Part shown: piece after piece, positions 1 to 46,615 of the stretch
Layout of the letters: each line of letters begins with the position of its first letter
How positions within the stretch are numbered: position 1 is the stretch's first letter
From: Bryoerythrophyllum caledonicum
Taxonomy: Eukaryota; Streptophyta; Bryopsida; Pottiales; Pottiaceae
NCBI GenBank assembly: GCA_963971425.1
Contig: OZ020515.1
Coordinates: 32,375,856 to 32,439,855 of the forward strand
DNA: 64,000 nucleotides
Direction of reading: 5' to 3'
Position numbers and translations under genes: made by a program
Notes under the pieces: generated by a model
What the model was told of the DNA's origin: nothing
The model's database searches: none
The model's input: only the letters and a program-made list of their open reading frames with translations

Positions 1-993
1 GCTAAAGTTCTTGACGAACCGGCAATAGTAATTCGCCAAGCCAAGAAAAGCTCAAAGCCGTGATACATCGATTGCGGCTGGAATCTTTTGCAACGCATCC
101 ACCTTGGCCTGCTGCACGCCAAGATCCCCTGGAACAATCATATGTCCCAAATATGGCAACCGGTCGTGGAAGAACTTGCACTTGCCATGGTGCAAGTGCA
201 ATCTCCACTGTCGTTACTTCTCAAACACCGCCTGAAGATGCCTCACATGCTCCTGTGGGCTGCTACAAAAAATGATAACATCATCAATGTAGCATCGGGC
301 AAACGGTAAACCGGTCAACACCCGATCCATCACCCTCTGAAACTCAGCGGGTGCGTTCTTGAGGCCAAATGGAAGAAACTTCCAATGGTAGAGCTGATCT
401 CTCCCATCCAAAAAAACTCCCCAGAACGCGGTCTTCACCCGGTCGTCCTCTATCAATGGTAATTGGTGGTAACCAGACCGCAAATCCAAAGTACTAAATA
501 CTCTGGCGTGTCCCACCGCATCAAACAACTCCTCTGGCGTGGGCATGGGATACCGATCCGACTTGGTCTTACGATTGACCAGCCTATAATCTCCACACAT
601 CCGCTTCTCCGTCCAGTTGCCAAGGATGTCCTTCTTCGATGGCATCACCGTGGCACAAGCATACTCGCCGTTGGAGAGCTCAATCAAGCTGGCGGCCAAC
701 AACTCCTGACAACGAGTTTGAACCCCAACTTTCTCAGAGAGACTTAGCTTGTACGGTCGTTGAAAGATCGGGTGGTCGTCCTCCAATTGAATGTGAATCG
801 GTTTGCCTCTGTAGCCCTCCAAATCATGGAGACTAAAGGCAAAGCAACTACGATACGAACGTATAAACGCTCGTACCATTCGTGCCTCGGCACCGGTTAG
901 ATGTGGCCCCAAATCCAAAGGCCAATCATCAAACTCCGTGGTCTCCATCTCCACCGTAGAAGACTCACCGCGTACCGGCACGGCTGGTGATTG
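1..993 (-). pseudogene. Reverse transcriptase / start of RNase H region of the left gypsy copy
   Basis: The main open frame is 214-981 (255 codons). It carries RT signatures: MCGDYRLVNRKT, FSTLDLRSGYHQLP, FLPFGLKNAPAEFQRVMD and the catalytic box CYIDDVIIF (YIDD in place of the usual YMDD/YVDD). A TAA at 214-216 interrupts it; the right copy has the same stop at 19,233-19,235. The frame then continues with HHGKCKFFHDRLPYLGHMIVP and the RT/RNase H connection region, including LANYYCRFVKNF, to position 1. A further TGA at 52-54 is private to this copy; the right copy has CGA there. The region lies in the same frame as the methyltransferase upstream, separated from it by TAG codons at 1,078-1,080 and 994-996. 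Confidence 0.85.
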
Positions 994-1077
994 CTACTTG
1001 GTAGCAGAGAGGGCATTAATTCCCCCAGACCCCTCATTCACGGGATCTACAGAAAATCCGGTGTTGCGATGATAAAA

Positions 1078-2514
1078 CTAGGAAAAGATATCCCGAGCAT
1101 CCTCACGGCCAAAGTCCTCTGCCAAGGCTACAAAGACACGCTGAGCACGAAGCTCTTCAGCAGCATGCCTCTTCAAACAAAAAAGCAACTCTGCTTCCTC
1201 GATCTCTGTGAAATGTGGCACCGCTGCCCCCTGACCATCAGAGTCTACCCCCAACATGCGTGGATGGTCACTCGAACGGCGCTGAGCGGCGAAATAGAGG
1301 CCACATACCCAAACGAGGGTGTTGAGGTCAATGGCTTGACCCAACAAATAACGGCGCTGGCCCTCAGAATGATTCGGTGCGGCGGTGGTGCCTGTCAAAA
1401 AGCCCATCGCCCGCTCCCTCATATCGGCAGAAGGCTCCTCGTAAGTTTCGGAAGAAGAATCCCAAACCATGCCCGGACTACGTGTCCTGAAGGCAAAAGA
1501 GCCCGGATAGCACATCAAGGTGGGAAATGCCCCCTGAGTGAAACCAACGCGGTTGACCACCGCCAATGGTGGCTCATCATCCTTGGTAACCTCCGTGGAA
1601 ACACGGTGGTCGTCCAAAATGTCATCGACCTCGCGGCGCATGGGCCGTTGCACTTGAGGAAGTGCAGAAGTGAGCATCGTGAATGATGCCATGTTGGTCC
1701 AAATCCAACGTGGCCGATGGGCGTAAGATCCCAACGCCACGACATCAACAAACGTAGGGGGACCAAGAAGGTGATGGATGTACACCCCATCCTCACACAC
1801 CTTCGTCCGTGTATTTCCCAATCGGGGTACATTCTCAAAAATGTACCCCGGTCGTGTCGATTGGTGGGTAATCCACCACTGGACGAGCCTGAGCAAATCT
1901 GCAAAGAGACATGACCCTGGGTCATCCAAGCCATGTCCATTGTCTGCCCGTGAATGGCCTTGGCAAGGCCATCCGGCAATCACCAAGTCCACGTGACCTA
2001 ACCGGCGAAGATCATCCTCACTGATCAACGTCACATCACGTGGCAAGTGGCCAAAACACCCTCGAATCGCAGAAGGTGGTAACTGCTCTGGATACAACGC
2101 TAGAAGACGCTGAATGTGATGGTGAGCGGCACGGTTAGCTGCAAAGCCACTATCCACGTGGATATACCGTCGTACCTTGAGCCCGGCCTCTAAGACAGCC
2201 GCGAGCCCCGTACCGATATTGGCAAATAACTCCACAAGGGTAATACCCTCATCCGATGGTCGCCACTCAATAGTGCGAGCCAACAACGAAGTAGAAGAGT
2301 CCACTGAAAGCGGTGGAGCATCAAGAGCGTCTATAATCTCCCCACTCCGACGAGCTCTAATGGTGTCCCCCACGATGGAAGCGGATCCTTGCAATGACGG
2401 GCATGGATGGCCAATGGTAGGTGCTCGCAGAGATCCTCCACCCCAGACATAAATGCATATGTCTCCTCCAAAAGTGAAGAACCACACGGCAAGTCTGATG
2501 CCAGAGCACTGCAA
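1078..2514 (-). CDS. C5-cytosine DNA methyltransferase domain (DNMT3-like, not permuted), left copy
   Basis: Open frame of 478 codons. In ORF numbering I see motif I LVELFANIGTG at 93-103, motif IV with the catalytic Cys in GWPCQGHS (Cys184, codon 1,963-1,965), motif VI FENVP around 226-230, a motif VIII-like AHRPRW at 265-270, and a motif X-like QRRYLLGQAIDLNTL at 386-400. The order I-IV-VI-VIII-X is canonical, unlike the permuted plant DRM enzymes. The AHRPRWIW pattern recalls the HRARYFW of DNMT3, while PCQ recalls DNMT1 and bacterial enzymes. The first about 50 codons probably overlap the protease-linker frame, and the natural protein probably begins near TIRARRSGEI. It sits between protease and RT where host genes have no place, so it is carried by the element. 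All core motifs are open; activity is unknown. Confidence 0.88.
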   Translation of the reverse strand: MQCSGIRLAVWFFTFGGDICIYVWGGGSLRAPTIGHPCPSLQGSASIVGDTIRARRSGEIIDALDAPPLSVDSSTSLLARTIEWRPSDEGITLVELFANIGTGLAAVLEAGLKVRRYIHVDSGFAANRAAHHHIQRLLALYPEQLPPSAIRGCFGHLPRDVTLISEDDLRRLGHVDLVIAGWPCQGHSRADNGHGLDDPGSCLFADLLRLVQWWITHQSTRPGYIFENVPRLGNTRTKVCEDGVYIHHLLGPPTFVDVVALGSYAHRPRWIWTNMASFTMLTSALPQVQRPMRREVDDILDDHRVSTEVTKDDEPPLAVVNRVGFTQGAFPTLMCYPGSFAFRTRSPGMVWDSSSETYEEPSADMRERAMGFLTGTTAAPNHSEGQRRYLLGQAIDLNTLVWVCGLYFAAQRRSSDHPRMLGVDSDGQGAAVPHFTEIEEAELLFCLKRHAAEELRAQRVFVALAEDFGREDARDIFS

Positions 2515-2711
2515 CTAAACATAGCGTCTGTCGTCGAAGTGACCGCGCTAGCTGCAAAGACTACGGGGATGAGCTCCTTCCCGCCATCATCGGCAGACCA
2601 CCGTGGCCTAATCCAGGCCTCCTCGGTCTAGTTATCCACCCCAAATCCAAGTGGATATAGTGCCTACTGGCCCACCAAAATGTCGTAGTTGGTGGCGCCA
2701 GTCACCGCGCA

Positions 2712-4640
2712 CTAGAGAGATACGTGAGAGAATAAAGGACCATATCCCACGCCGAACATCAACTGCAACGGATGCCGGGTGTAGCCCATGGCCTTCTCCG
2801 TGCCCCCAACCGATGTAACAATCGTGAATGGGCAGGGCTCGAGGTCCGAAGCACCTAGACGCAAATCATGGGCTAGCTGCTTGCCAATCATCACTGGCTG
2901 AGCTCCGGAGTCCAACATAACACGAAGAGGATTAGCTTGAGTGGGGTTGCCGTCCGTATGACCAACCACCATGACTCCGTCATCGTTTACCAAACGTACC
3001 ACCCGTGGACGCACACTACGTCGCTCCCGTACTGACCGGGCTGCAACGTCAGACAAATAAACCACTCTAGAGATCAAGGACTGATCCCTGAAGGAGTGCT
3101 CCATAAGAGGGGATGTGGCATTGACCTCAAATGCGGAAATAGCCTCCGCCGCCAATTTGGCCCGCATTGCCACCAAATCCTCCTCGGTGGGTGGAGCTGT
3201 CACTTTCTGCGACATCTCCAATGATGGCATAGGCACCTTGCCCTCCAACATACTACCCGCCAAGTGGAATACACCGGATGGTTGAAAATCCGGTGTCAAA
3301 AAGTCTACACCGGCAAATACCGGCAACCGCAACACCTTGTACGCCAAGGAATGAGCGGCATCCATATGGGTAGAAGAAACTGGGGGTACGGTAGTCAAAG
3401 GGGGAGCGGCACCAATAGCAGCTGCATCCGCAATGCCAAACGACAGTGGTAGCCGTGACTGACCAATGTGGTCCGGTAATCCCACGTGACGTGGAGGACC
3501 ACTGGTACCCGGTACACCGGATGAAGGTGGCACTGCCTGAGCAGTGGTCTGAGCACAAGTGGCAACTGCAGCCACAACCTCCCTAGATGCACCATACAAA
3601 TAGGCATCCATGGTTGAGGACGAACTACGACTCTTCACCGGAGCCCATGCATTCACCACTTGTCCCAAAGAAGCATTCGCACTCAACTTCTTCTCCAACT
3701 CCGCCACATTGGCCTCCAAGTCCTTCTCCCGTGATGAACCTGGCCGCTTCTCCGGGTGGAGAACAAAACAGTTCTCATCGCTATGGCCGGACCTGCCACA
3801 GTGAGAACAAGTAACGAGTTTCTTCCTTTTGCCCGCAACTTTGTCACCAAACTTGGCCGCCTTGGTCTTGGGCTTCACCTTCCCCTTCTCTGCCTCTTTC
3901 TTCTTAGAAGTGTTTAGGTCCCCTTTGGTGTGATCGGGTTCTCTACAAGCCCAGCAATGCACAACCTCTTCAGGTTGTGCCTCCACCAAGCTACTCATTG
4001 CAGTAGCCAGCTTCTTGGGCTTAGGAGCGTCCATCAATGACGTGACCAAGTCTGTGGCCTTGGACACGCCCAACGCTCTATCAAATGCTTCCACCTCAGC
4101 AAACGCTTGAGCCAAACTAGCGTTGCCGTGATAATCAAAAAGAAGACGGGGGGTGATCAAGTCCACCATCCTCTTGTCCAACTTGGAGATAAAAATCTTC
4201 ACAAGTTGGCGCTCTGTGAAGACATCACCTGCCTCCACTGCCAACCACGCCAATCGGGTATACATGGTGCGCGGCGTGTCCTCCTTTTCACGGTGGAAAT
4301 CCTGGATGCGCTGCATCTGATCACACCAGAATCCCCTATACTCCACTTTCAAATGCGCCATAAACCGCGCCAAAGGGTCAAAGACTGGTGGTGGACCAAC
4401 GGCCAGCAATGCCGCCCGCGTGGCCTGGGCCAAACGCAATATGGCTCCCATGCCGGACGCCTCATCTACAAGGGCAATGCCCTTGTACCTCGAATCCGCG
4501 CTGGAGAAGCCTCCCTCCTCCTTGGGTTGATCGGTAAAGATCGGGACACGAGCAACAGAGCTCTCCTTGAGCGCAGTCACCAATTCCACCCGGTCGCACC
4601 AATAATCCTCAACCGGACGCAACTCCTCCGCATGCAGTAC
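2712..4640 (-). pseudogene. gag C-terminal part, nucleocapsid and aspartic protease, left copy
   Basis: Open frame 2,712-4,622 (636 codons). It has a retrotransposon gag domain (with FHREKEDTPRTMYTRL and MVDLITPRLLF), a degenerate first zinc knuckle (CWACREPDHTKGDLNTS, last Cys lost) and an intact second one (CSHCGRSGHSDENC, CX2CX4HX4C). A Pro/Ser-rich linker follows, then a retropepsin active site in RVMLDSGAQPVMIG (D-S-G). A private TGA at 4,641-4,643, TGG in the right copy, separates it from the gag N-terminus. At the 3' end three in-frame TAG codons (2,712-2,714, 2,664-2,666, 2,628-2,630) precede the methyltransferase; the right copy shares all three. Confidence 0.85.
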
Positions 4641-4643
4641 TGA

Positions 4644-5015
4644 TCACCTCCCATAGGTCTGGAGCGCCTCCAACTCCAAATGCTGGGGCAGAAACTCAAA
4701 AGCGTAGCAGCCGTTGAACGACGGTGAACGCTGACGCTTCTCCTTCATCCATGTCTGGAAACGGAGCTGCCAATCGGGTAGGGAGATGCCCCTAGCCCGA
4801 CCTGAGAAACGATCACGCACAACCTGGCGATGATCGTCCTTCCTGTTGTCAAACGTGCCCACACTCCAAAGTCAAAGCCTACGGTCGGTATCCAACACCG
4901 AAATAGGCTCAAAAGCTTCGTCGGTATCTGACCATGGCCTTAAGTCTGAAGCTGGTGCACTCTCCGGAGAATCTGGTGAGGGAGAACGGTAGTACCGACT
5001 GCTCGTACTCACCAT
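4644..5015 (-). pseudogene. gag N-terminus, left copy
   Basis: The likely authentic start is the ATG at 5,013-5,015, giving MVSTSSRYYRSPSPDSPE, because this frame aligns with the ATG at 14,379 of the right copy and runs in frame into MGTFDNRKDDHRQVV. A TGA lies just before the MGTF stretch. The right copy also has a TGA in this stretch, but two codons away, so the two lesions are independent. The later part (LPDWQLRFQTWMKEKRQR, YAFEFLPQHLELEALQTYGR) matches the right copy closely. Confidence 0.75.
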
Positions 5016-6499
5016 AAACAAAAATCCTCCAGGTAACTATCTACGGGTGCTATCTAAAGGGTAAGGGTACGGACGGACAACCTGCACCTGCAAAATCACC
5101 AAGCTATGTACTTTGCTGGTCATCACCTCCGGCTAACACACGTCCAACCACATCCTTCCACATAGAAAGGTCTTGGCGGTCATTACTCCGACTTCACCCC
5201 TACGGTACCCTATCACAAGCTAGCACAACAATAAATGGGGCCACCGGAAAACACCAGCAACAAGCCCGCAACACGGAGGACGTACCGCACAAGAATCTCG
5301 AAAGTCAAAACCGGATCCTCTCCCCCAATAACATGAAAGCAGGAAAATGAAGAGACAACGCTACTGGCACACGCCTGCAGTGGATGCCTCAAAGTCGCAA
5401 ACCCTGCAAATCAAAGAGAAACACTAAAAAGTGTTCTCCCCTAACGTCTAAAACTAAGGGAGTAGCGGAGATTGACCATGGTGTTAAAAAATCACTATCC
5501 CTCCAATGAAATCACATACATTGGTGGATAATCACGACAAATGCCAAACTAACGCTAAAGCCTAAAATTTGGTCAAATGGCGGAAACTCCAACTAAAAGC
5601 ATAAATGTCACTCACATCCGAGGAACAATGCCTTTGAAATCTACTCCCAAAGTTAAGCACTATTTTTTTTTTTTTTTTAAAGATCACAAAACATGTTTTC
5701 GGCCCTCACAAAATAACTAGCAAAATAATTTTTTTTGATAAACTATTCTTTTCTATAACACTAATCTTAGAATTCTTCCACGAACTCAAATCCGTGATCA
5801 GAATCTCAAAAATAACTTTTTTTCCAAAAGTTGAAAGTTTAGAGTTTGAGTCTAGGGATGTTCTGAAATTCGGCTCAAAAACTGACGCAATTGGGTACCT
5901 CGGCACGGGATATGGTACCTACGGTTTAGGAGCCCTACCGCATTTGAGTTGCTTTGGCTTATTCAAGCCCCTTGACCCCTGATCTCGAGCTTTGAGCTCG
6001 TGCCCGCACAATGAGTGCGCTGTCTACTCACGCCGCAAATCCGCCACGTCGTGTCGGGTCCCACTTGCCCGGATCCATCCCGTTAGAAGCCTAGCTGTCC
6101 CCTCTCGGAATATTCACTTCGACCAACGCACCCGTGCTCGTAGTCAGGTCGTGGTTACTCCCTCACGTCGCGATTGTCCTCTTGCCGGGTGTCAACCTAG
6201 CTGTCTCCTTCGATGACCCCTAGACTGTAGAACGCCCGTATCTCCACGCCTCCTCCCTTTACCACAGGTCGTACACTAGCAATGCCCTCAGTCCACTGGT
6301 CGGCGTCTAGCGGTCGGAAGAGGCGCCGAATTTTGCACACAGAGTTTAGGGACTGTCTTCCAAATCATAAAAATGAGACACTCAAATTGAAGGCACTAAT
6401 ATCTTGTAGCGTTGTCGTGTAGAGAGGAGTGCGCTTTGAGAATACGCGAGGTATCTGGCTGCGACTTCGTATAGTCTGCTACGGAGTTCTGTCAAATCT

Positions 6500-6546
6500 T
6501 GCGGTCTTCGGTCTTCAGTCTTCAGTCTTCAGTCTTCAGTCTTCAA
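6500..6546. repeat. Short tandem repeat (GTCTTCA-type, about 5 copies)
   Basis: Successive copies of GTCTTCAGTCTTC are visible, with the first unit reading GTCTTCG. It lies inside the nested DNA of the left gypsy leader. No coding potential. Confidence 0.8.
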
Positions 6547-7939
6547 ACTCCTCCCCGTTGGCCTATCCTGTGGTGGCTCTAAAGGATTAAGGGTAAAGGT
6601 GGGTGATAAGAAACCACGGCCTTGGACGGGTAAAACGGGATGGCCAGACCACAAGCTGAAACCGTCCGAAAGATTGGCTCCTAAAATTCAAACCCACGGT
6701 GACCAGCAAACGTGCCTCACTGGTGGGAACGACATAAACACGACCGTATGGGCAATTAATCCCACTTCGCCGCAACAGAGGTTTACAAGAACAGAATTGA
6801 AATACAACTAGCCTCCAAAGCTGGCTTGGAATCACAAAAATAGAAATCGGACCACAAGCCACAACACACTTGTCTCCATCTTCTCTTCTCTTCAAGGCTC
6901 AAGTCTTCAATTCTTCCATCCTTCAACTCCAAAGTCTTCAAGTGTTCAAAAACACTAAGAAACTCAAAAGAAGTGTTCAAAAACACAATGGAAAAGTTTC
7001 ACCAAGGCTGTAACTTTCAAACAAGTGACACAGATGACTCAAAACTTCAAATACTAAGTGTAATAGCTCTCTAGAAAGCTAATTCAGACAACTAACACTC
7101 CTCCAAATTTCAAGTCAATCTAAACTACTGTCTGAAAGTTATACGAGTTCAAAGTTCTGCCCCTCCAGATATTCAATCGCTCATAACTTCTTCTTCAAAA
7201 CTCCGAATCTCAATTGTAATAACTTTTTGAAGAGCTATGACCATGGTTCACGCATCTTCCAATTCTCAAACAATTCTAAACTATTTTCCAAAAGTTATGG
7301 ACAATCAAAGTTCTGCCTACCCCTATTCATTCAGATCTCTATAACTTCTTGCTCACAACTCCAAATCTCAATTGTAATATCTTTCTAGAAAGCTAAGATA
7401 GAGATGCACAGTCCTTCAAAATCTCAAATCAAATTGAGAACTACAAAAAAAGTTGTGGCTCCTCGAAACCTCTGCCCCTCAATGGATGGCCTCGGGTTTT
7501 CACAGAATTAAAACCTCAATAACTTTTGCTCTTTAACTCCGAATTCAAAATTTAAAACGAGTATGAAAAGTTCTTAAAACAAGGAACAAGATCACAAATT
7601 TTCAATTCCATATCATTCAAGCTCAACGAGTTACACACAGTCAAAGTTCTGCTCCAAATCCTTGCTCTCTCACCCGCACACACACACACACTCACTAAGG
7701 AATCTTCCCCCTAATCTTTTCCACCTCAAGTGGACGTGGGCACTCCAGCCCATGTCACCCTATCCAAAGTACCCCACAAGGTACTTCATAACTTTCTTAT
7801 CCTTTCCACTTTCAACCACATAAAATCCCCTAGTCTTTTATTTATGGGAAGACTAAAAACTTAGACCTTCCAACCAACAAGATAAGTAAAATAAAAAAAA
7901 AACTAAATAAATTTAAAAAAAACTTATCGTAAGATAGTT

Positions 7940-8260
7940 GATGGTACGGACGTATAAAGGTCTTGATTCGCACAACTTGATCGCCAAGTCGTGGATTTGG
8001 TTGGCTGGAAATGTCGTGGTCAGTGGCCGCCGCCGGTCCGGGTTCAAACCCGATCGAGTCCGTCGAGTGGTTAGGCGGCCCACGACTTGGCTCGCTAGTG
8101 AGGCAGGAAAAATACCAGTCAACCCGCTACCTACTCCCATGAGCAGTGACAAGAACGGTGTAGCATCTACATGCTAACACTTGCCGAAATCCTCAAACCG
8201 TGGTTCTCACCACGACAAACCTTTTTACCTCATCTAACCGCTAGCTGTAATCAAAACATA
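7940..8260 (+). mobile_element. tRNA-derived SINE-like block, left
   Basis: An A-box-like TGGATTTGGTTGG (7,992-8,004) and a B-box-like GGTTCAAACCC (8,041-8,051) are spaced as in a tRNA-type internal pol III promoter. The block shares GCCGGTCCGGGTTC at the B box and a downstream GAGC..GTGACAAGA segment with the block at 21,595-21,830. A free tRNA is unlikely because no cloverleaf is evident. SINE or tRNA-like tail of a composite is inference from the two boxes and the second copy. Confidence 0.5.
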
Positions 8261-8426
8261 TCCACACTGGTAATAATATCTACGTGATGGAAGAATTTCC
8301 ATCAGGACAGCGTCTTATACAGTTTTAGTGCTAATGTCACTTACTCCTTCTCTACTCTCTCTTTACACTTCCAAATACTTCCAAATTGCAAAAACAAGAA
8401 GAAAATAGTGAAAGAAATGGGGGTCT

Positions 8427-8795
8427 TTGTCAAGTGAATCACATGTGTTTTCCACAAGAAGTCAAGCGACACGCACTCCACAAGGGGAGAATCAACGAGT
8501 GCAACTAAAGTAGAGAATGTGGAGCTTTCACTAATGATAAACCATCACTTTACAAGCAAAGAACTCACTAATCACTCTCTAACATCACTCACAAAGCTTG
8601 ACTTGACAAAGACGTCAATTCAAGGACAAGTGCGGCGCTATACGCACACACGCGCAACCCTAAGTGGAAGAAAGTCATCCACAGATGAATGGGGTGCGCC
8701 GCCATATGTCCCTAAACACACGTAGATTAGTAACAAACTAATCTACGCTAAAACTACGATACGGAGAGGCCCTCGAGGCCACGTCTCGTGACAAA
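8427..8795 (-). repeat. 5' terminal repeat of the left gypsy copy
   Basis: On the minus strand it begins TGTCACGAGACG and matches 12,781-13,148 and 23,631-23,986 almost throughout, up to CACTTGACAAAGACC. It starts with TG as an LTR would. The match begins at the same nucleotide as in the right copy, so this is a real boundary. Whether it is a full LTR or an R-like segment is discussed in the findings. Confidence 0.8.
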
Positions 8796-9500
8796 AGGTA
8801 CGGTAGTCGGGAACCATATATACAAGCACGTCATAGAAAGATGCAAATAAAGCTTAACAAAATTTATACTTTTGGATATATACTATCTAAAACTTGTAGG
8901 AGGTGATTGGGATGGCTGAATAGAGCTCCGCGTTTTCTGGTGAGAGGAGGTAGGGACTTAGTCGTAGAACTTGGTTTACAAGCAACAAGTGGAGGCTGGA
9001 CCTTGTTGAGAGCCCTTGTACATCATAGATCTGAGACATTGGAGAGGTTGCAAGGCAGGATGTGTTGGAAAAAAAAAACAAACTCACAACTTTAGATCTG
9101 AAGTAGTAACGCTAGTAACGTGTGTAGAGATTAGATCTGAGAGACTTCTTACAACAGAGCTGAGGAACATTGTGTTGGCACATGGATCCAACCACTCACT
9201 CATCATCGGTGCAAGACCTACTTCAGATCTGAAGATTTGGATACCAGACCTACAACCTCGCTGAGAGTCCCTACATCTCCCCAATCCAGACTCTCAACCT
9301 ACGACATTGGAGAAACAACAAGCGCACAGTGGAGCCTAAGCGGTATCTGCACCCTCCATCAGGCTATCTCTAACTTTCACATTGCACATTTTTTCTTATA
9401 CACAACTTCTTCTTTCCTTTTAATTCTTGATATATGAAATTTTCCTTGCATTAGAATCTGGTATGCTACTAACGACACCCCCACCACTAGTAAATATTGT
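8796..9500. other. Spacer between the two gypsy copies, no gene seen
   Basis: No convincing coding region. Around 9,028-9,232 the motif AGATCTGA recurs four times (near 9,028, 9,093, 9,133 and 9,226), which gives a weak dispersed repeat. I see nothing else supportable. Confidence 0.4.
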
Positions 9501-12659: not shown

Positions 12660-12780
12660 AATGAGACAAATTGTGAATTTTGAGACTAAAAGCCTATTAT
12701 TTCGGAACAATAAACAACGTGTATAGTTATTGCAAACTGTAAAATACAATAAACAACATAAGGAAAAGCATCACCAAGCT

Positions 12781-13148
12781 GTCACGGGACGTGGCGTCGA
12801 GGGCCTCTCCGTATCGTAGTTTTAGCGTAGATTAGTTTGTTACTAATCTACGTGTGTTTAGGGACATATGGCGGCGCACCCTATTCATCCATGGATGAGT
12901 TTCATCCACTTAGGGTTCCGCGTGTGTGCATATAGCGCCGCACTTGTCCTTAACTTGACGTCTTTGTCATGTCAAGCTTTGTGAGTAAGGTTAGAGAGTG
13001 ATTAGTGAGTTCTTTACTTGTAAAATGATGGTTTATGATTATTAAAAGCTCCGCATTCTCTACTTTAGTTGCACTCGTTAATTCTCCCCTTGTGGAGTGC
13101 GTGTCGCTTGACTTCTTGTGGAAAACACATGTGATTCACTTGACAAAG
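12781..13148 (+). repeat. 5' terminal repeat of the right gypsy copy
   Basis: Begins TGTCACGGGACGTGGCG and matches 23,631-23,986 with about 10 differences in 360 bp, and 8,795-8,427 (minus) less closely. Contains a stretch reading ACTAATCTACGTGTG. It is followed by leader sequence with no obvious tRNA primer site. Confidence 0.8.
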
Positions 13149-13344
13149 ACCTCCCTCAATCTCTTCTTTAGTTCTTAAATGAAAGCTTAGGTGAATAGAA
13201 ATTTTTTGTGGGTACTTAGATTGATGTTGAAGAGCGCGATTAGATGAAGGCAACGCAACAAACGGCGCCCAATTTGGAGGATTTTTGAAGAAATTATGGG
13301 CGTTCAAAGTTTGGAGTGAAGAAGGGCAGCATTCTGGTCTGTGG

Positions 13345-13545
13345 CAATTTTTCATCCACTGCGTCGTTTTTCATCCACAACGTCGTTTCTCATCCGACGC
13401 TTGTTCTTCATCCGCTGCTGCAGTTTCATCCGCTGCAGCGATTTTCATCAGTTTCGCGATTTTTCGTCCAATTCGCGATTTTTCATCCTCTGCACGAGTT
13501 ATCATCCGCTGCGGCCAGATTTCATCCACGGCGGATGAAACTGTA
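13345..13545 (+). repeat. Degenerate TTTCATCC tandem repeat in the gypsy leader
   Basis: TTCATCC recurs every 17-20 bp about ten times (TTTCATCCACTGCGTCG, TTCATCCGCTGCTGCAG and so on), ending in an inverted version CGGCGGATGAAACTG. The array occupies part of the 5' leader. I could not find an equivalent array in the left copy, where nested DNA replaces this part. Confidence 0.65.
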
Positions 13546-14378
13546 TTTTGGGCAGAATCCAACAACTGTGAGTTCATATCTTCCAAAATATTTACTATTT
13601 TTGGATTTTGACTTCGGATTTGAGCTTTTTAGGGGGGGTTTTATCCTATAGGCAAGAAAAAAATTTTGGGATAAAAGTTTTTTGAGAATCACATTTTTAT
13701 GTGGCTATAAAATTATAAAAATAAAAATAAAAGATTAGTGTTTAAACTTTGGAGGTAGTTTGCGAGGGCAATTTCACTTGAATGTGAGTCAAATTTGCGC
13801 CTCTAGTTGGGGATTTTGCCATTTAATCCAATTTTAGTGTTGGATTGGCTTATTGACGCGTTTAATCACTCATTGTGTTGATTGCATTGGGGGGATTTGT
13901 GTTTTTGAACACCGCGGTCAATTATCCTACTTCTCCTTTAGTTTAGATATTTGGGAGAAGCACTTCTAATGTTTCTCTTTGTATTGCACGTTTGCAACTC
14001 GGGCCATCCATTGCAGGCGTGTGCCAATGGCTCTGACCCCTTCTCATTTTCTGCTTTTATGTTGTTGGGGGAGAGGATCCGGTTTTGATTTTCTGGATTC
14101 TTGTGCGGTACCTCCCCCATGTTGCGGGCTTGTTGCCGGTGTTTATCGGTGGCCCCATTTTCTTGTTGTTCCAGTTTGTGATAGAGTACCGTAGGGGTGA
14201 AGTCGGATTTATGGCTGGCAAGACCTTTCTATGTGGGGGGATGTGGTTGGACCTGTGGTAGCCGGAGGTGATGACCGGTGATCCACACAGCTTGGTGATT
14301 TTGCAGGTGCATGTTGCCCGTTCGTACCCTTACCCTTTAAATAATACCCGTAGATAGATCCCAAGGTAGTTCTTGTTT

Positions 14379-14936
14379 ATGGTGAGTACCCAGAGTCGGT
14401 ATTACCGCTCTCCCTCATCAAACCACTCGGAGAGTGCTTCCACCACAGACTTTGGGCCAGGGTCGGATACCGACGAGGCTATTGAACCTGTTTCGGCGTT
14501 GGATACCGACCGTAGGCTTCGGGTCTGAAGTGTGGGCACGTTTGATGACATGAAGGACGATCACCGTCATGTCGTGCGAGACAGGTTCTCGGGACGGGCT
14601 GGGGGCATCTCCCTACCCGATTGGCGTTTCCGATTCCAAACTTGGATGAAGGAGAAGCGCCAGCGGACGCCGTCGTTCAACGATTGGTACGCGTTCGAGC
14701 TTTTGCCCCAGCATTTGCAGGTGGAGTCACTTCAGACATATGGGAGGTGGACCACGCAGCACGAGGCACAGTTGCGCCCGGTTGAGGAGTATTGGCGCCA
14801 GCATGTGGAGTTGATCACTGCACTCAAGGAGAGTGCGGTTGTCCAACACTCGACTTTCACCGAGGAGCCCAAGGAGGAGGAGAGTTTCCTCGGTGAGGAC
14901 TCCAAGGGCAAGGGTGTTGCCATTGTGGGCGAATGA
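14379..14936 (+). pseudogene. gag N-terminus, right copy
   Basis: ATG at 14,379 (MVSTQSRYYRSPS). After a TGA just before 14,532 the frame continues MGTFDDMKDDHRHVV to a second TGA at 14,934-14,936; the left copy has a sense codon at the second site. It holds a Trp-rich gag segment (LPDWRFRFQTWMKEKRQR, ESLQTYGRWTTQHEAQ). The residue pattern is the same as in the left copy at 4,644-5,015. Confidence 0.75.
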
Positions 14937-16697
14937 GCTGGCATGAGGGCCATGTCTCGTTTGGCCGTAGCCACACATGCGGCATTGGTGGCGGTTGGCA
15001 ACCCGCCAGCCTTCGATCCTGTGGCGCACTTCGTGGCGCATCTGGAGGTGGAGTACGGGGGGTTTCGGCGCGATCAGATGCACCGCATCCAGGACTTCCG
15101 CCGTGAGAAGGAAGACACGCCGCGCACCATGTACACACGGTTGGCGCGGTTGGCGGCGGAGGCCGGTGCTGTCTTCACGGAGCGCCAATTTGTGAAGATT
15201 TTTATCTCCAAGCTCGACAAGCGGATGGTAGAGTTGATCAGTCCACATTTGCTCTTCCGGTATCACGGCAACGCGACCTTGGCTCAGGCGTTCGCCGAGG
15301 TGGAAGCGCTTGACCGGGCGTTAGGTGTGAGCGAGGCCACAGACTTGGTCACGTCGCTCATGGACACTCCGAAGCCCAAGAAGCTTGCTACGGCGACTGG
15401 TAGCTTGGCAGAAGCACAACCTGAAAAGGTTGAACATTGTTGGGGTTGTGGAGAGGCCGGTCACACCAAGGGGGACCCCAATTGTCCCAAGAAGAAGAAG
15501 GCAATGGCGAGGAAGGCCAAGCCCAAGACCGAGGCGGCCAAGCTTACGGAGAAGACTGGGGGCAAGGGGAAGAAGCCTATGACATGCTCTCACTGTGGCA
15601 AGCCTGGCCACAGTGATGAGAACTGCTTTTCTCTTCACCCGGAGAAGCGCCCAGGATCTTCGGCTGTTGGATCAGATGCCGTGAACTCACTTCAATCCGA
15701 ATTGGCAGAGCTGAAGAAGCAGATGAGCGCGATGGCTTCTTTGGGGCAAGTGGCAGATACACGGCCTGTGGTGACGGGTCAGGGCTCATCTTCAGCCCTA
15801 GATCGCTACTTGTATGGCGCTTCGGGGGAGGTGGTGGCAGCGGTTGCCACTCGTCCTCAGAACATTACACATGCGGTGGCACCCTCTTCCACTGTCCCGA
15901 GTAGTAGCGGTTGTTCACGCCATGCGGGTCTGCCGAACCACATTGGTCAATCCCGGCTACCTCTTTCGATCAACATCGCGGATGGGGCTACTTCTACTGC
16001 CGCTCCCACTTTGATTCCGGTCCCACCGGTTCCTAGTAGTCCTGGAGATGCTGCACACACCTTGGTGTACAAGGTGTTGCAATTGCCGATGTTTGTTGGT
16101 GTGGACTTACTCACACCGGATTTTCAACCATCCGGTGTATTCCACTTGGCGGGTAGTATGTTGGAGGGCAAGGTGCCCATTCCATCATTGGAGGTGTCAT
16201 AGGCAGTGACGGCTCCACCCACTGAGGAGGATTTCGTGGCAATGCGGGCCAAATTGGCAGCGGAGGCTGTTTCCGCGTTCGAGGCCAATGCCTCTTCCCC
16301 TCTTATGGAGCAGTCCTCCGAGGATCAGTCCTTGATCTCTGGAGTGGCTTATTTGTCTGACGTTGCAGCCCGGTCAGTACGGGAGCGACGCAGTGTGCGT
16401 CCACGGGTGGTACGTTTGGTAAACGATGACGGAGTCATGGTGGTTGGTCATACGGACGGCAACCCCACTCAAGCTAATCCCCTTTGTGTTATGTTGGACT
16501 CCGGAGCTCAGCCAGTGATGATTGGCAAGCAGCTAGCCCATGATTTGCGTCTAGGTGCTTCGGACCTCGAGCCCTGCCCATTCACGATTGTTACATCGGT
16601 TGGGGGCACGGAGAAGGCCATGGGCTACACCCGGCATCCGTTGCAGTTGATGTTCGGCGTGGGATATGGTCCTTTATTCTCTCACGTATCTCTCTAG
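14937..16697 (+). pseudogene. gag, nucleocapsid with two zinc knuckles, and aspartic protease, right copy
   Basis: Frame 14,943-16,202 holds the gag domain (FRREKEDTPRTMYTRLARL) and two intact CX2CX4HX4C knuckles, CWGCGEAGHTKGDPNC and CSHCGKPGHSDENC. After a TAG at 16,200-16,202 (CAG in the left copy) the same frame continues to 16,697 with the protease active site LDSGAQPVMIG. Knuckles of this type bind genomic RNA, and the protease would cut the polyprotein. Three in-frame TAG codons (16,695, 16,743, 16,779) then separate it from the methyltransferase; the left copy has the same three. Confidence 0.85.
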
Positions 16698-16886
16698 TGC
16701 GCGGTGACTGGCGCCACCAACTACGACATTTTGGTGGGCCAGTAGGCACTATATCCACTTGGATTTGGGGTGGATAACTAGACCGAGGAGGCCTGGATTA
16801 GGCCACGGTGGTCTGCCGGTGATGGCGGGAAGGAGCTCATCCCCGTAGTCTTTGCAGCTAGCGCGGTCACTTCGACGACAGACGCT

Positions 16887-18332
16887 ATGTTTAGTTGCAG
16901 TGCTCTGGCATCAGACTTGCCGTGTGGTTCTTCACTTTTGGAGGAGACATATGCATTTATGTCTGGGGTGGAGGATCTCTGCGAGCACCTACCATTGGCC
17001 ATCCATGCCCGTCATTGCAAGGATCCGCTTCCATCGTGGGGGACACCATTAGAGCTCGTCGGAGTGGGGAGATTATGGACGCTCTTGATGCTCCACCGCT
17101 TCCAATGGACTCTTCCACTCCGTTATTGGCTCGCACTATTGAGTGGCGACCATCGGATGAGGGTATTACCCTTGTGGAGTTATTTGTCGGTATTGGTTAC
17201 GGGGCTCGCGGCTGTGCCAGAGGCCGGGCTCAAGGTACAACGGAATATCCACGTAGATAGTGGCTTTGCAGCCAACCGTGCCGCTCACCATCACATTCAG
17301 CGTCTTCTAGCGTTGTATCCAGAGCAGTTACCACCTTCTGCGATTCGAGGGTGTTTTGGCCACTTGCCACGTGATGTGACGTTGATCAGTGAGGATGATC
17401 TTCGCCGGTTAGGTCATGTGGACTTGGTGATTGCCCGATGGCCTTGCCAAGGCCATTCACGAGCGAACAGTAGACGTGGCTTGGATGACCCACGGTCATG
17501 TCTCTTTGCAGACTTGCTCAGGCTCGTCCAGTGGTGGATTACCCACCAATCGACACGACCGGGGTACATTTTTGAGAATGTACCCCGATTGGGAAATACA
17601 CGGACGAAGGTGTGTGTGGATGGGGCGTACATCCATCACCTTCTTGGTCCCCCTACGTTTGTTGATGTCGTGGCGTTGGGATCTTACGCCCATCGGCCAC
17701 GATGGATTTGGACCAACATGGCATCATTCACGATGCTCACTTCTGCACTTGCTCAAGTGCAACGGCCCGTGCGCCGCGAGGTCGATGACATTTTGGACGA
17801 CCACCGTGTTTCCACGGAGGTTACCAAGGATGATGAGCCACCATTGGCGGTGGTCAACCGCGTTGGTTTCACTCAGGGGGCATTTCCCACCTTGATGTGC
17901 TATCCCGGCTCTTTTGCCTTCAGGACACGTGGTTCGGGCATGGTTTGGGATTCTTCTTCCGAAACTTATGGGGAGCCTTCTACCGATGAGAGGGAACGGG
18001 CGATGGGCTTTTTGATAGGCACCACCGCCGCACCAAATCTTTCTGAGGGCCAGCGCCGTTATTTGTTGGGTCAAGCCATTGACCTCAACACCCTTGTTTG
18101 GGAATGTGGCCTCTGTTTCGCCGCTCAGCGCCGTTCGAGTGACCATCCACGCATGCTGGGGACAGACTCTGATGGTCAGGGGGCAGCGGTGCCACATCTC
18201 AGAGAGATTGAGGAAGCGGAGTTGTTTTTTCGTTTGAAGAGGCATGCTGCTGAGGAGCTTCGTGCTCAGCGTGTCTTTGTAGCCTTGGCAGAGGACTTTG
18301 GCCGTGAGGATGCTCGGGATATCTTTTCCTAG
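16887..18332 (+). pseudogene. C5-cytosine methyltransferase, right copy, broken in motif I
   Basis: Most motifs are present: RWPCQGHS (catalytic Cys), FENVP, AHRPRW, QRRYLLGQAIDLNTL. The N-terminal part through motif I (LVELFVGIG) lies in another frame, 16,895-17,260. Compared with the left copy there is one extra T near 17,198, inside motif I, so AdoMet binding would be lost. Near 17,038 a run of five G marks the point where the protease-linker frame and the methyltransferase frame part; the left copy shows the same run and offset. The final TAG at 18,330-18,332 is shared with the left copy. Confidence 0.85.
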
Positions 18333-18416
18333 TTTTATCATCGCGACACCGGATTTTTTGTAGATCCCGTGAGTGAGGGGTCTGGGGGAATTAATGCCCT
18401 CTCTGCTACCAAGTAG

Positions 18417-19235
18417 CAATCACCGGCCGTGCTGGTACGTGGTGAGTCTTCTTTGGTGGAGAACGAGACCACGCAGTTTGATGATTGGCCTTTGGATTGA
18501 TTGATGATTGATGATTGACCACGGAGTTTGATGAGTGAGGGGCCACATCTTACCGGTGCCGAGGCACGAAGGGTACGAGCGTTTATACGTTCGTATCATA
18601 GTTGCTTTGCCTTTAGTCTCCATGATTTGGAGGGCTACAGAGGCAAACCGATTCACATTCAGTTGGAGGACGACCAGCTGATCTTCCAATGACCGTACAA
18701 GCTAAGTCTCTCTGAGAAAGTTGGGGTTCAAACTCGTTGTCAGGAGTTGCTGGCCGCCAGCTTGATTGAGCTCTCCAATGACGAGTACGCTAGTGCCACG
18801 GTGATGCCATCAAAGAAGGACATCTTTGGCAACTGGACGGAGAAGCGGATGTGTGGAGATTATAGGCTGGTCAATCGTAAGACCAAGTCGGATCGGTATC
18901 CCATGCCCACGCCAGAGGAGTTGTTTGATGCGGTGGGACACGCCAGAGTATTTAGTACTCTGGATTTGCGGTCTGGTTACCACTAATTACCATTGATGGT
19001 GGACGACCGGGTGAAGACCGCGTTCTGGGGAGTTGATCAGGATGGGAGAGATCAACTCTACCATTGGAAGTTTCTTCCATTTGGCCTCAAGAACGCACCT
19101 GCTGAGTTTCACAGGGTGATGGATTGGGTATTGACCGGTTTACCGTTTGCCCGATGCTACATTGATGATGTTATCATTTTTTGTAGCAGCCCACAGGAGC
19201 ATGTGAGGCATCTTCAGGCGGTGTTTGAGAGGTAA
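18417..19235 (+). pseudogene. Reverse transcriptase, right copy
   Basis: RT boxes MCGDYRLVNRKT, FSTLDLRSGYH, FLPFGLKNAPAEFHRVMD and CYIDDVIIF are visible. Lesions: a short rearranged, partly duplicated stretch near 18,495-18,540 compared with the left copy, a TGA near 18,690 (CGA in the left copy), and a TAA at 18,984-18,986 (CAA in the left copy). The TAA at 19,233-19,235 is shared with the left copy. Two TAG codons upstream (18,330 and 18,414) separate it from the methyltransferase in the same frame. Confidence 0.85.
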
Positions 19236-20303
19236 CGAGAGTGGAGATTGCGCTTACACCATGGCAAGTGCAAGTTCTTCCACGATCGGTTACCATATTT
19301 GGGACATATGATTGTTCCAGGGGGTGTTGGCGTACAGCAAGCCAACGTGGATGTGTTGTAGAAGATTCCTGCCGCAATCGACGTATCACGGCTTCGAGCT
19401 TTTCTTGGCTTGGCAAATTACTATTGCCGGTTTGTCAAGAACTTTAGCTTGATTGCCAAGCCGTTGACTATTCTCGCGGGGAAGGATCAGCCATGGACTT
19501 GGGGACGAGAGCAGCAACAGGCGTTTGCTACTTTGAAGCTGAAACTCGGTTCAGCGCCTGTATTGCGGCGTTCAGTTGCTACACGGTCTTTCCACTTGCA
19601 CACGGATTGGAGTGCGGTAGGATTGGGAGCCGTGTTGACTCAATATGATGATGAGGGACGGCAGTACATTGTGGCGTTTGCCTCTAGGAGCAACAACAAC
19701 GCGGAGTCCAACTATTCGTCCTATGAGGGGGAGGCCTTGGCCGTAGTTTGGGCCATAGCCCATTTTAGGCCCTACTTGTAAAGGCAGTGTTTTACCTTGG
19801 TGACCGACCACCAACCTTTGAAGTGGCTCATGGAGTCTGACAAGCTTACTGGCAAGCTTGCTAGGTGGGCTTTGTTGCTTCAGGAGTATGATTTTGAGGT
19901 TGTACACCGGGCGGGCATCACAAACTTGGATGCGGATGGTCTATCTCGCAATCCAAGTCCATCGGAGGAGGATTTGACTGGTGCCACGTGGCATGGGGAC
20001 TGCGATAGAGAATCAGTTCCGGGGTGGCATGCAGCAGCTTACCTCACATTGATGTCCAGATCCACATCGACGTTGCCTGATATGGCAGCGGATGAGGAAC
20101 CGGACAAAGCCCAGATTGTTCGCGACGTGTGGGAAGACGTTCTAGTCTTGCACAAGCTGCAACATGGCACACTTCCGTTCGCTCTTTCGGCCATGGAGCG
20201 CGATCGAGTTGGACACCGGATAGCGAGGTTCCGTTGGGAGAACTGCCTTCTATTTCGGTTGTGGCTGGATGGAACTAGGCACACAGTTCCCAGATCGGAT
20301 TAG
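19236..20303 (+). pseudogene. RT connection and RNase H domain, right copy
   Basis: After the shared TAA the frame reads HHGKCKFFHDRLPYLGHMIVP, a TAG near 19,361 (CAA in the left copy), then LRAFLGLANYYCRFVKNFS. RNase H follows, with FHLHTDWSAVGLGAVL (first catalytic Asp), SSYEGEALAVVWA (Glu) and, after a TAA at 19,779-19,781, LVTDHQPLKWLM (Asp). The frame stops where the nested insertion begins, in the linker that normally joins RNase H to integrase. Confidence 0.85.
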
Positions 20304-20589
20304 AGGGCTTCGTTGGTACGGTGTCGTGGAGAGAGAATTTGCCTTGGGAAAACACAGGGTTCTTGGCTGCTACCAATTTCAGCAAAGAAAGAAGGGAGGT
20401 GTAATAAAGACGATCTTCATTGGTGATAAACTTGAAATAAAACAAAGTAAGACTTTAATCTTCTCTAAAGGTAAACTTCTTGACTCATCTTGACAAACCC
20501 TCGCAAGTGATTAAACAAGTAGTTTGAGTAAACTTGGGGTAGCAGAACCTTCTCTCATTCTATCAAGCTCTACCACTTCATACTTAGCT

Positions 20590-21210
20590 TTATATGAGCA
20601 TGCAATAGCTTCCTAGAAAGCTAATACAGTAAGGCTCATACGTACAAAATTTGAATATAAGAAGATCTATACAAATGCTTCTATGAGGAATCAAAGTCAC
20701 TGCTCTAATTTGCTCAAGGCAGCTGACTCCTTTCCAATCAATCTAGCATAACTCTCTCAAACCAACTCCAATCCACCTACGTAATAGCTTTTTGAAAAGC
20801 TAACAACAAGATTAACAAGTGATAAAATTCTCAATCCTACTGAATCTATATGCAATGAATTATAGTTACTCAAAGTCACTGCTTGAAACTTGTGGAATAA
20901 AACCCGCGCCTCCGAGAACACTCCTTCAATAGATTAAGTGCCACAAATCCATAACAACTCGGATTTGAGCTTGTGATAGCTCATTGAAAAGCTAATTCAA
21001 CCACCACTCTACACATAAAGATTCACTATCTCACTCTTTGTATACAAGTTTCTATATGGAATCAAAGTTACTGCTCTCAAAAATTCATGGCAGCAGTACC
21101 CTTGTTTATTCAAATCCACACCACAGCTTCTACATAACTCCGATTGGAGTGTGTGATAGCTTGTTGGAAAGCTATTAACAAGTTCTACAACACTCTAAAA
21201 ACTGACGTCA
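20590..21210. repeat. About 180-bp degenerate tandem repeat with hairpin-like marker
   Basis: Four units, each holding a TCAAAGTYACTGCTC-like phrase and an inverted AGCTTTTTGAAAAGCT-type motif. The equivalent in the left copy (about 7,040-7,400) has three units at about 157-bp spacing and the phrase CAAAGTTCTGC. The units are diverged, so this is an old array. Confidence 0.55.
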
Positions 21211-21594
21211 AAACTCACAAAACTCTACCTGTCACACTCGAAAACCCGAGCGTCTTTTTATACTAAATGGAGGAGGCTTTGGCCGAGGGAGGAGGGAAGA
21301 AAAGTCAAGGGCCTAAATCAGCCCATGCTTCTCTAGCCTTCCTTTTGACTCACCTTTGGACACCAAAGTCTATTTACCTCCAAATCTTATCCAAATCTTC
21401 CCACATAAGCCTAGCTTGACTTTTATTTCCTAACCTACAACTCTACTACAAGTTGGCACTATATTTCTCCCCCTAAACTAACCCCCAAACTAAACATTTC
21501 TTATTTCTACTACAAACTATAATACCATAGCACTCTATTTAAGTTTTTTGATCTCAGAAGAATTAGAGAATAGCTTAAATATCATTAGAGCCCA

Positions 21595-21830
21595 CGTACT
21601 GCCATCGACCACGGCTTAGTTCGGCTGGCTAAGCTTTTCGTTGCACCTTGCCGGTCCGGGTTCGATTCCTTGACTTGTCAGAGCGGCTGGCGCTCGCGTG
21701 GTCAGGGGACTGCCGGAATCAGCAGTAAATCCAGCTAGTTGACGCTCCTAAGCCCTGAGCTAGTGACAAGATGCAGTAAAGATCCTCTAAGATAAGCTTC
21801 TGGCCTGGTAGGGTAATTGAGGAAAAAATC
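21595..21830 (+). mobile_element. tRNA-derived SINE-like block, right
   Basis: A-box-like TTAGTTCGGCTGG (21,616-21,628) and a B box matching the consensus, GGTTCGATTCC (21,659-21,669). It shares GCCGGTCCGGGTTC and a GAGC..GTGACAAGA segment with the block at 7,940-8,260. The 3' side runs into AT-rich text. Confidence 0.55.
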
Positions 21831-21897
21831 ATTTATTCTCCACAATTACCTTAACCAGCTAAGTTCCCATTTTTTCTTCTAAATCTTATTTTTTTAT

Positions 21898-23187: not shown

Positions 23188-23523
23188 CCCGATGAAACGG
23201 CTTGAATTCCTCGTGGACTTGTCACTGTGTGGTGCGTTGCTATCCAATTGGAGTTTTTTGGTTTCAATTCAAGGATAGGCAACGTGGAGATTGACCAAGG
23301 GACTGGCAACAAAGTTGTCTAAGGCGATTAAAGATGGGGCTCACATTGCACCCGACCGACCCTCTCTTTGTTACTTCTCCATATACTTATTGATTTGGCA
23401 ACGGGCGACATCTTCATCTGTATGCGTATAGTTGTTGCAGCGACATCACCGTGGGTTCAGTCTTGTTAGTGCTGTATGGTCCTAGCTGGATAGAGGGTCT
23501 CTTTATCCGCTAGAGGGGGCACT
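23188..23523 (+). other. 3' untranslated part of the right gypsy copy and polypurine tract
   Basis: No ORF. It ends in AGAGGGGGCACT (about 23,512-23,523), a good plus-strand primer site, directly before TGAGGGTGTATTATG. Confidence 0.6.
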
Positions 23524-23629
23524 TGAGGGTGTATTATGTATACTTGCTTTAGTATATGTTTTTCGTATATTTGATGTTGGTTAGGACTCTCGATCTGTTG
23601 TGGTTATCGATCTTTCTTTACATGACAGC
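23522..23629 (+). repeat. 105-bp repeat, copy A, after the polypurine tract
   Basis: From TGAGGGTGTATTATG to TTTACATGACA. It starts with TG, ends with CA and follows the purine-rich tract, as a U3 or a short LTR would. It is repeated at 23,987-24,092. Confidence 0.75.
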
Positions 23630-23630
23630 T

Positions 23631-46610: not shown

Positions 46611-46615
46611 GATAG

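Follow-up and report, generated by a model that had tools for sequence, protein, structure and literature searches.

A DNMT3-type cytosine methyltransferase ahead of a predicted readthrough stop in a Ty3/gypsy retrotransposon family of the moss Bryoerythrophyllum caledonicum

The window analysed here, a 64,000-nucleotide stretch of the 437-Mb genome of the moss Bryoerythrophyllum caledonicum (contig OZ020515.1; G000:C2:32375856-32439855), contains two decayed copies, A and B, of one Ty3/gypsy retrotransposon subfamily, W, whose polyprotein includes a cytosine DNA methyltransferase (DNMT) of the DNMT3 type. Judged by its copies elsewhere in the genome, the family is large and recently active in this host. 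In intact members the DNMT ends the Gag-protease open reading frame (ORF), ahead of a stop codon of the readthrough type. As a working hypothesis, the enzyme most likely marks the element's own DNA. Retrotransposons of this kind are already known from one green alga, and the sequences compared below add mosses, liverworts and a desmid to their hosts. Transposons are normally silenced by cytosine methylation, so the maintenance by selection of a DNMT within such an element presents a paradox, which was noted in 2018 for a charophyte and dinoflagellates.

A methyltransferase domain between protease and reverse transcriptase

An earlier sequence-only reading of the window had described a C5-cytosine methyltransferase between the protease and the reverse transcriptase (RT) of a gypsy element, and the profile search supports it: Pfam PF00145 matched copy A with an E value of 4.5e-8 and copy B with 6.5e-9. 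In copy A, on the minus strand, the ORF named in that reading (478 aa, 1078-2514) carries a DNMT3-type domain at approximately 1081-2280. The motifs listed there were all recovered, namely I (VELFANIGTG, 2206-2235), IV (GWPCQGHS, 1951-1974) and VI (FENV, 1828-1839), together with a VIII-like (SYAHRPRW, 1705-1728) and a X-like (RYLLGQAIDLN, 1321-1353) stretch. They are flanked by the protease motif LDSGAQP (2895-2915), which lies in an ORF for Gag, with a CCHC zinc knuckle, and aspartic protease (2712-4622), and by the YIDD box (280-291) of the RT ORF (217-993). The conserved readthrough-type stop, TAG CAATCA (UAG-CARYYA), is located at the border between Gag-protease-DNMT and RT (988-996). The domain replaces nothing in pol and lies between protease and RT, as had been stated, but its assignment to a pol region needs refining, as intact relatives have the DNMT at the end of the Gag-protease ORF.

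In copy B, on the plus strand, the Gag, CCHC and protease region (14529-16694; DSGAQP at 16494-16514) is broken by stops and is followed by a DNMT-bearing ORF (16887-18332). The DNMT itself occupies 17174-18332, with motif I in another frame (17174-17203), RWPCQGHS at 17436-17459 and FENV at 17571-17582. The TAG CAATCA stop (18414-18422) and a stop-broken RT and RNase H region (18693-20300; YIDD at 19158-19169) come next. The two copies are 87% identical over 5.75 kb and represent separate insertions of subfamily W, in line with their earlier description as independent; a 4-bp target duplication flanks copy A, and none was seen at copy B.

Both window copies look dead from their sequences. Motif I of copy A is mutated, reading FANIG where relatives carry FAGIG or FGGIG, and a frameshift separates the protease linker from the DNMT, the first approximately 78 residues of the 478-aa ORF not being polyprotein. 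In copy B, motif I is interrupted by a frameshift and GWPCQ has become RWPCQ. In both copies a premature TAG (1078-1080 in copy A, 18330-18332 in copy B) follows the residues RDIFS, where relatives such as P0001 continue reading. Therefore, only intact relatives could methylate anything.

Copies of the family in the host genome

The sequence-only reading had proposed a search of the host genome for gypsy elements with this domain order; a search with the window enzyme gave 2405 first-look candidates. Of these, 104 were scored, and all 104, window copies included, matched at 78-100% identity, so that the domain is not a chance insertion confined to two copies. Nine of the scored loci have a 1353-aa frame without an inner stop, and three further loci have such a frame with one stop. 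A Pfam profile search of the same genome returned 1055 candidates, and all 123 that were scored matched, one of them (L001) being a different, bacterial-looking gene. Copies of the family are spread across the chromosome-scale contigs of the host.

Six further regions were read, four of 21 kb with both element ends (c2a, c4, c6 and c2b) and two of 16 kb with the right end only (c3 and c1). The four full copies belong to a subfamily, S1, and consist of a 1371-aa Gag-CCHC-protease-DNMT ORF, one TAG and a 1041-aa RT-RNase H-integrase-PHD ORF, the latter broken by one stop in c6. The two copies of the terminal repeat A (A1 and A2, described below) are 99.5-100% identical in the S1 elements, 94% in copy A and 97% in copy B. 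The S1 insertions are therefore young and the window copies are older.

An ORF of 216-220 aa is located upstream in c2a, c4 and c6. In c2a (L010/L009), of subfamily S, it is 216 aa long (6561-7208 of the joined stretch), precedes gag and shares 19 nt with the following ORF, which is in a different frame.

The stop codon behind the methyltransferase

UAG-CARYYA is the type I, or tobamovirus-type, readthrough signal. The stop at the DNMT/RT border reads CAA TAG CAA CCA in subfamilies S1 and S2, AAG TAG CAA TCA in W and in the related contig L052, and AAG TAG CAG TCA in L041. The nonamer is kept at 25 of the 27 sites inspected (c2a, c4, c6, c2b, c3, c1, L026-L043, both window copies and L052), having been lost in L033 and c1, and the residues flanking it differ (QPRVENP vs QSPAVPV in S1 and W). 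Eighteen of the sites, L026-L043, were hand-picked for intactness and spread from the 123 scored rows and are not a random sample; 17 of them keep the stop, 14 in frame right after the DNMT, one in frame past a premature stop (L041) and two out of frame (L032, L043).

Database proteins are consistent with this arrangement. Among 30 proteins that reach 900 aa or more and contain protease and DNMT but no RT, some of them named as partial gene models, 21 end 72-142 aa past the DNMT, as an in-frame stop predicts. Readthrough of the stop is predicted from its context. As the DNMT ends the Gag-protease ORF before the leaky stop, the enzyme should be made at the level of Gag; a Pol-side DNMT was rejected for S1, S2 and W, where the domain lies upstream of UAG-CARYYA in the Gag-protease-DNMT ORF. 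The conserved leaky stop offers an argument, based on dosage, as to the enzyme's site of action.

Relatives and the type of enzyme

Three overlapping database searches found 50, 88 and 59 homologous proteins, 161 of them distinct. Named relatives come from Marchantia polymorpha (e.g., Mp_4g09160, Mp_8g17980, Mp_6g11220 and MARPO_0008s0049), Sphagnum fallax, S. troendelagicum, Calypogeia fissa, Closterium NIES-53 and NIES-54, and transcriptome entry GHRQ01002908; the majority of the matches are unnamed metagenome proteins. The Marchantia, Sphagnum and Calypogeia relatives, which are situated on contigs of 8.8-27 Mb, bring a DNMT-carrying gypsy system into tractable plants.

Domain mapping of the 161 proteins distinguished two architectures. 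In the first, T1, the DNMT follows the protease, with RT behind it where the ORF continues; in four T1 relatives (P0134, P0135, P0058 and P0035) the DNMT runs into RT without a stop. In the second, T2, the order is RT-RNase H-DNMT-integrase-PHD (11 complete proteins). The DNMT stands alone in 81 proteins, many of them short pieces. A PHD finger follows the integrase in elements of both architectures. A single branch separates T2 from the other rows both in the RT tree (23 rows; support 86/90) and in the DNMT tree (support 87, with one unlabelled row inside T2). Enzyme and element may thus share one line of descent, perhaps with one move within the polyprotein or with two captures.

A profile built from 31 of these retrotransposon DNMTs was compared with solved structures. 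DNMT3A was the best match (1.1e-19), and all 29 distinct structure sequences ranked above DRM (4onj, 4.4e-11) were DNMT3A, 3B or 3C. HaeIII (2.1e-8), HhaI (5e-7), DNMT2 (4.7e-4) and DNMT1 (2.2) followed. The motif order I-IV-VI-VIII-X is unrearranged. By profile, the enzyme is DNMT3-type and not bacterial. In the protein database, the weakest match of the main set scored 138 bits and the next, of bacterial type, 47 bits. In 31 aligned relatives motif IV has P, C and Q without exception, and E and N of motif VI are nearly invariant (28 rows).

A quick DNMT tree, as suggested in the sequence-only reading, was built from 44 of the 89 usable retrotransposon domains and four outgroup rows, with no plant DNMT3 among the rows; four other selected sequences had been dropped for insufficient length. 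It set the bacterial enzymes apart on a branch of length 3.3, and together with the profile scores this contradicts the grouping with bacterial contaminants that the reading had considered. The tree does not fix a position for the clade within DNMT3: the DNMT3A fragment falls next to T2 (84% support), but its branch is very long (2.8).

In viral contigs the DNMT profile found only six weak matches, and an RT search gave no match. In genome contigs it found L052 and five weak actinobacterial matches; the weak matches L046, L053 and L054 have a GC content of 68-71%. L052 (CADCWO010000201.1) is a near-complete W-type element in a record labelled as a cyanobacterial metagenome-assembled genome. 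Its ends, 1-127 and 9159-9285, are identical over 127 bp, which gives it the look of a circular assembly, as from a collapsed long terminal repeat (LTR) element or a real circle.

Purifying selection and mutational trace

The ratio of nonsynonymous to synonymous substitution rates (dN/dS) of the DNMT was 0.088, 0.086 and 0.099 in three S1-S2 pairs (dS approximately 1.2, near saturation) and 0.167, 0.132 and 0.193 in three pairs of W copies with L052. These alignments show purifying selection on the DNMT between lineages. For RT, the values were 0.041, unusable (dS undefined) and 0.049 in the S1-S2 pairs, and 0.255 (frame probably shifted near the end), 0.043 and 0.082 in the W-L052 pairs.

The C-to-T fractions at CG, CHG and CHH sites were 0.079, 0.087 and 0.053 among ten W copies, 0.063, 0.047 and 0.035 among nine S1 copies, and 0.056, 0.065 and 0.054 among four S2 copies, whose mean identity is low, probably due to one badly aligned end. 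CpG decay as a proof of self-methylation was rejected, the trace being too weak.

Repeats, ends and priming

The full copies have the repeat order A1-coding-B1-A2-B2, with A only at the left end and B-A-B at the right end. The identical full LTRs expected at both ends of a Ty3/gypsy element were not found; the order protease-RT-RNase H-integrase, with a DDE integrase, is that of Ty3/gypsy. The ends are of TG...CA type, TGTC on the left and GACA on the right. All five copies with both ends intact are flanked by 4-bp target duplications (CCTC, TAGT, AAAT, ATGC and CTTT), and none of 20 cross-pairs matched. In copy A (1-8793, the right-hand part of the element, which extends 3.0 kb past the window to G000:C2:32372825), the left end TGTC lies at 8793 and the right end in L025, with CTTT on both sides; its repeat A1 (8430-8793) is the one that is 94% identical to its own A2, in L025. 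In copy B (12777-24092), where every part is present but decayed, A1 occupies 12780-13143, B1 23522-23626, A2 23627-23987 and B2 23988-24092.

A polypurine tract precedes B1 (AGAGGGGGC at 23512-23520, immediately before B1, in copy B), and a primer site, ACTTGA(G/C)AAAGA(T/C), is located at the end of A1 (ACTTGACAAAGACC at 8422-8435 in copy A). A 13-nt complement of the primer site lies inside repeat A. It reads ATCTTTCTCAAGT in the four S1 copies, GTCTTTGTCAAGT in copy A (8601-8613, a perfect complement) and, as read by eye, ATCTTTGTCAAGT in L052, and primer site and complement co-vary at two positions across these three. None of 500 base shuffles of A reached 13 nt, either for the four S copies or for copy A; in copy B the complement (12960-12972) has decayed to a 10-nt match, a length reached in 4 of 500 shuffles. 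Folding of the stretch after the complement gave z scores of -1.7 and -1.0. A co-varying complement of this sort points to self-priming, and reverse transcription of these elements is probably self-primed.

By the usual logic of reverse transcription, with the polypurine tract before B1 and the primer site after A1, the LTR would be B-GC-A. The B1-GC-A2 stretch contains the palindrome GACAGCTGTC (23624-23633 in copy B), composed of the right end (GACA), GC and the left end (TGTC). The corresponding joint of subfamily S occurs 86 times in the genome at no more than 3 mismatches, the reversed control giving 0. The A2-B2 border would then be an apparent LTR-LTR joint, the end of one LTR being joined to the start of another. 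There are 46 exact-flank matches to such joints in the genome (reversed control 0), a search that would miss deletions reaching into the flanks, and 44 of them are identical; one of the remaining two has an extra T and the other 4 extra nucleotides, readable as two of the primer site and two of the polypurine tract. At G000:C12:23034659-23035664, two B-A and two A-B joints are spaced 605 bp apart, so that two units stand in succession and the insertion carries one LTR unit more than usual.

Split direct repeats of the form A-coding-B-A-B are carried by DIRS/PAT elements and by Chlamydomonas TOC1. The present repeats have the same form, so that a DIRS/PAT-like templated cycle, on an RNA running from A1 through B2, is a serious if rather unlikely alternative to LTR circles. 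The 44 identical joints are what a template would give, and the same repeat order was noted for the algal element KnitGypsy-Dnmt3 (PMC5890265). This cycle is opposed by the 4-bp duplications, the polypurine tract before B1 and the primer site after A1, and the joint whose 4 extra nucleotides fit retained ends of primer site and polypurine tract. The two long ORFs of one copy gave no tyrosine recombinase by Pfam, and a DDE integrase is present instead. Membership in DIRS was rejected on the target duplications and this Pfam result. The target duplications, the primer complement and the LTR-LTR joint make the DIRS-like repeats of these gypsy elements a testable replication model.

Possible function of the enzyme

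The domain order, the stop context, the recent spread, the 4-bp duplications at TGTC...GACA and the A-coding-B-A-B repeats are all read directly from the assembled DNA. Their combination with a DNMT made at Gag level that marks the element's own DNA is the explanation to which we give slightly better than even credence. Intact members would make a Gag-protease-DNMT protein, and occasional readthrough of UAG-CARYYA would extend it by RT, RNase H, integrase and PHD finger. The DNMT3-type enzyme, its amount set by the leaky stop, would travel with the particle and put de novo CG methylation on the element's own complementary DNA (cDNA), probably in a joined or circular form, since the repeats point to such a form. 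New copies would arrive already marked and tolerated, and host MET1 would afterwards maintain their CG methylation; the host has DNMT1/MET1, with two RFD matches side by side. The integrase probably cuts the LTR-LTR-joined circle once, at the palindrome within the LTR, and a single staggered cut there, in a circle with two LTRs, would give the observed insert. Somewhat below even, and accordingly tentative, is our confidence in the broader proposal of a widespread streptophyte clade that combines self-primed cDNA joined LTR to LTR, a single DDE cut at the palindrome and Gag-level DNMT3 marking before integration.

Several observations weigh against self-marking or against parts of the scheme. 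Gypsy elements free of DNMT do well without such an enzyme. WPCQ is present in 112 of the 160 database proteins with the domain, many of them fragments, and P0058 has WECQ. The dN/dS of the DNMT exceeds that of RT in four of the five usable pairs, RT being more constrained, and the within-subfamily mean for the DNMT is 0.27-0.42, as is expected with decaying copies. The C-to-T excess at CG and CHG over CHH is small (1.05-1.8 fold), and the observed/expected CpG ratio is mixed (0.48 in c2a, 0.82-0.87 in W copies and L052). As the T1 relatives without a stop and the second architecture with a Pol-side enzyme indicate, not all of the clade depends on a Gag-level dose. Few full copies supply the borders on which the circle model is built, and copy B, whose right end is altered, has neither a target duplication nor an undecayed primer complement. 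In the 2018 work, KnitGypsy-Dnmt3 gave no methylation in yeast, a result that its authors call inconclusive (PMC5890265).

The enzyme could instead act in trans on host chromatin and, set free in surplus, shift methylation at insertion sites, close to them or throughout the genome, perhaps with the PHD finger of the integrase as its guide. With the DNMT upstream of the stop, more DNMT than integrase is expected, the PHD finger follows the integrase in T1 and T2 elements alike, and host effects in Symbiodinium are discussed in the 2018 paper (PMC5890265). The same source describes the methylome of Klebsormidium nitens as resembling that of land plants, which speaks against such action, and we regard it as unlikely. 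A role of the domain in the particle without DNA methylation, by nucleic-acid binding or RNA methylation, would also account for its conservation. The Gag-side position would suit binding, and RNA methylation is raised for the LINE-type elements in the 2018 paper (PMC5890265). The invariant P, C and Q of motif IV and the nearly invariant E and N of motif VI, seen in the aligned relatives though not in all database proteins, and between-lineage dN/dS values far below 1 make this distinctly improbable.

An unselected passenger, copied by virtue of its position in the polyprotein, would explain why the window copies and many others are broken and why selection appears relaxed within subfamilies; this reading, already disfavoured, has very little left to recommend it given the between-lineage dN/dS of 0.09-0.19 and a full-length DNMT at two positions in very divergent relatives. 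Bacterial contamination or misassembly, to which two relatives in bacterial-labelled records (P0006 and L052) and the bacterial-looking DNMT at G000:C14:16016358 might point, is refuted for the window element by the Gag, protease, RT, RNase H, integrase, PHD finger and repeats that surround the DNMT, by its copies across chromosome-scale contigs and its relatives on the megabase-sized Marchantia, Sphagnum and Calypogeia contigs, and by the fall of bacterial homologues to 47 bits.

Comparison with known systems

The nearest described system is KnitGypsy-Dnmt3 of K. nitens (de Mendoza et al. 2018; PMC5890265), a publication that bears out the earlier mention of a charophyte report, as it describes a DNMT3 in a charophyte gypsy element. 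As described in the published text, that element shares with the present family the Ty3/gypsy domains, a DNMT3-type enzyme in the polyprotein, DIRS-like repeats and purifying selection, with a DNMT Ka/Ks below 0.2 against 0.086-0.193 between lineages here. It may differ in the position of the DNMT, which is described there as part of the Pol ORF of one alga and here ends the Gag-protease ORF before UAG-CARYYA. Target-site duplications, a self-priming candidate, a PHD finger, over a hundred copies and land-plant relatives further set the present family apart from KnitGypsy-Dnmt3 as described there. No match named as K. nitens was returned by the three protein searches, most of whose matches are unnamed.

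SymbioDIRS-Dnmt3 and SymbioLINE-Dnmt of Symbiodinium are also retrotransposons with a cytosine DNMT, the former DNMT3-type as here and CG-active in yeast; they are a tyrosine-recombinase DIRS and a LINE, with other machinery and hosts (PMC5890265). A 2025 paper mentions DNMT3 in LTR Copia [sic] and DIRS elements of streptophytes and dinoflagellates, citing the 2018 work (PMC12344493), and a 2019 paper gives methylase-encoding transposons as absent from land plants, such as tracheophytes (PMC6338049).

The exact tobamovirus-type nonamer is found here at the Gag-protease-DNMT/RT border, with the DNMT upstream of the stop; among LTR elements, readthrough at a Gag stop has precedents, such as that in work on Tca2 (PMC2194720). 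Self-priming elements such as Tf1/Sushi and Tcn1 have a primer site complementary to a stretch of their own LTR, as here (PMC6317226); in the present family it is repeat A, 181-221 nt in, that holds the complement. In comparison with DIRS/PAT elements, the split repeats are the same and the DDE integrase and 4-bp duplications are different.

The searches made of the open-access literature brought up no report of bryophyte members, the leaky stop or the primer complement, of Closterium relatives or the T2 architecture, in which the DNMT stands between RNase H and integrase, or of TGTC...GACA ends with 4-bp duplications, LTR-LTR joint and palindrome in DIRS-like repeats. A search of it for gypsy LTR elements with PHD-finger integrase and methyltransferase in moss gave no match, and the 2018 paper alone was among the matches for KnitGypsy or Gypsy-Dnmt3.

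Other features of the window and the assembly

Copy A is approximately 2.2 kb longer than copy B between A1 and gag (5679-8419), probably owing to a later insertion. In copy B, approximately 1.6 kb between RNase H and integrase (20322-21923) is not present in L052 and is probably a later insertion too. The copy B integrase (H2C2, rve; 21898-23187) ends in a PHD finger (23029-23163) and has D at the position of the expected catalytic E (GLADRVVQ, 22411-22434), the triad having been read by eye.

A Copia-type ORF for the Gag/protease side (Retrotran_gag_2, Pol_BBD, GAG-pre-integrase) is located at 56817-58862 on the plus strand. SWIM zinc fingers are common in Mutator-like transposases, and a weak one, below the Pfam cut-off, was detected in an ORF at 36544-37515 on the plus strand. 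Tandem-repeat arrays, recognised by overlapping self-matches, occupy 30583-31031, 32823-33786 and 46597-47443.

Elsewhere in the assembly, the L001 stretch (G000:C14:16014858-16018817; DNMT at 16016358) lies within a 22-Mb contig and carries the bacterial-looking DNMT, a single exon next to a transposase-like ORF; it may be contamination, a misjoin or a transfer. Two clearly different plastid matK-psbA regions (C821 and C894; L044, L045) are present in the one assembly, as if two plants had been co-sequenced.

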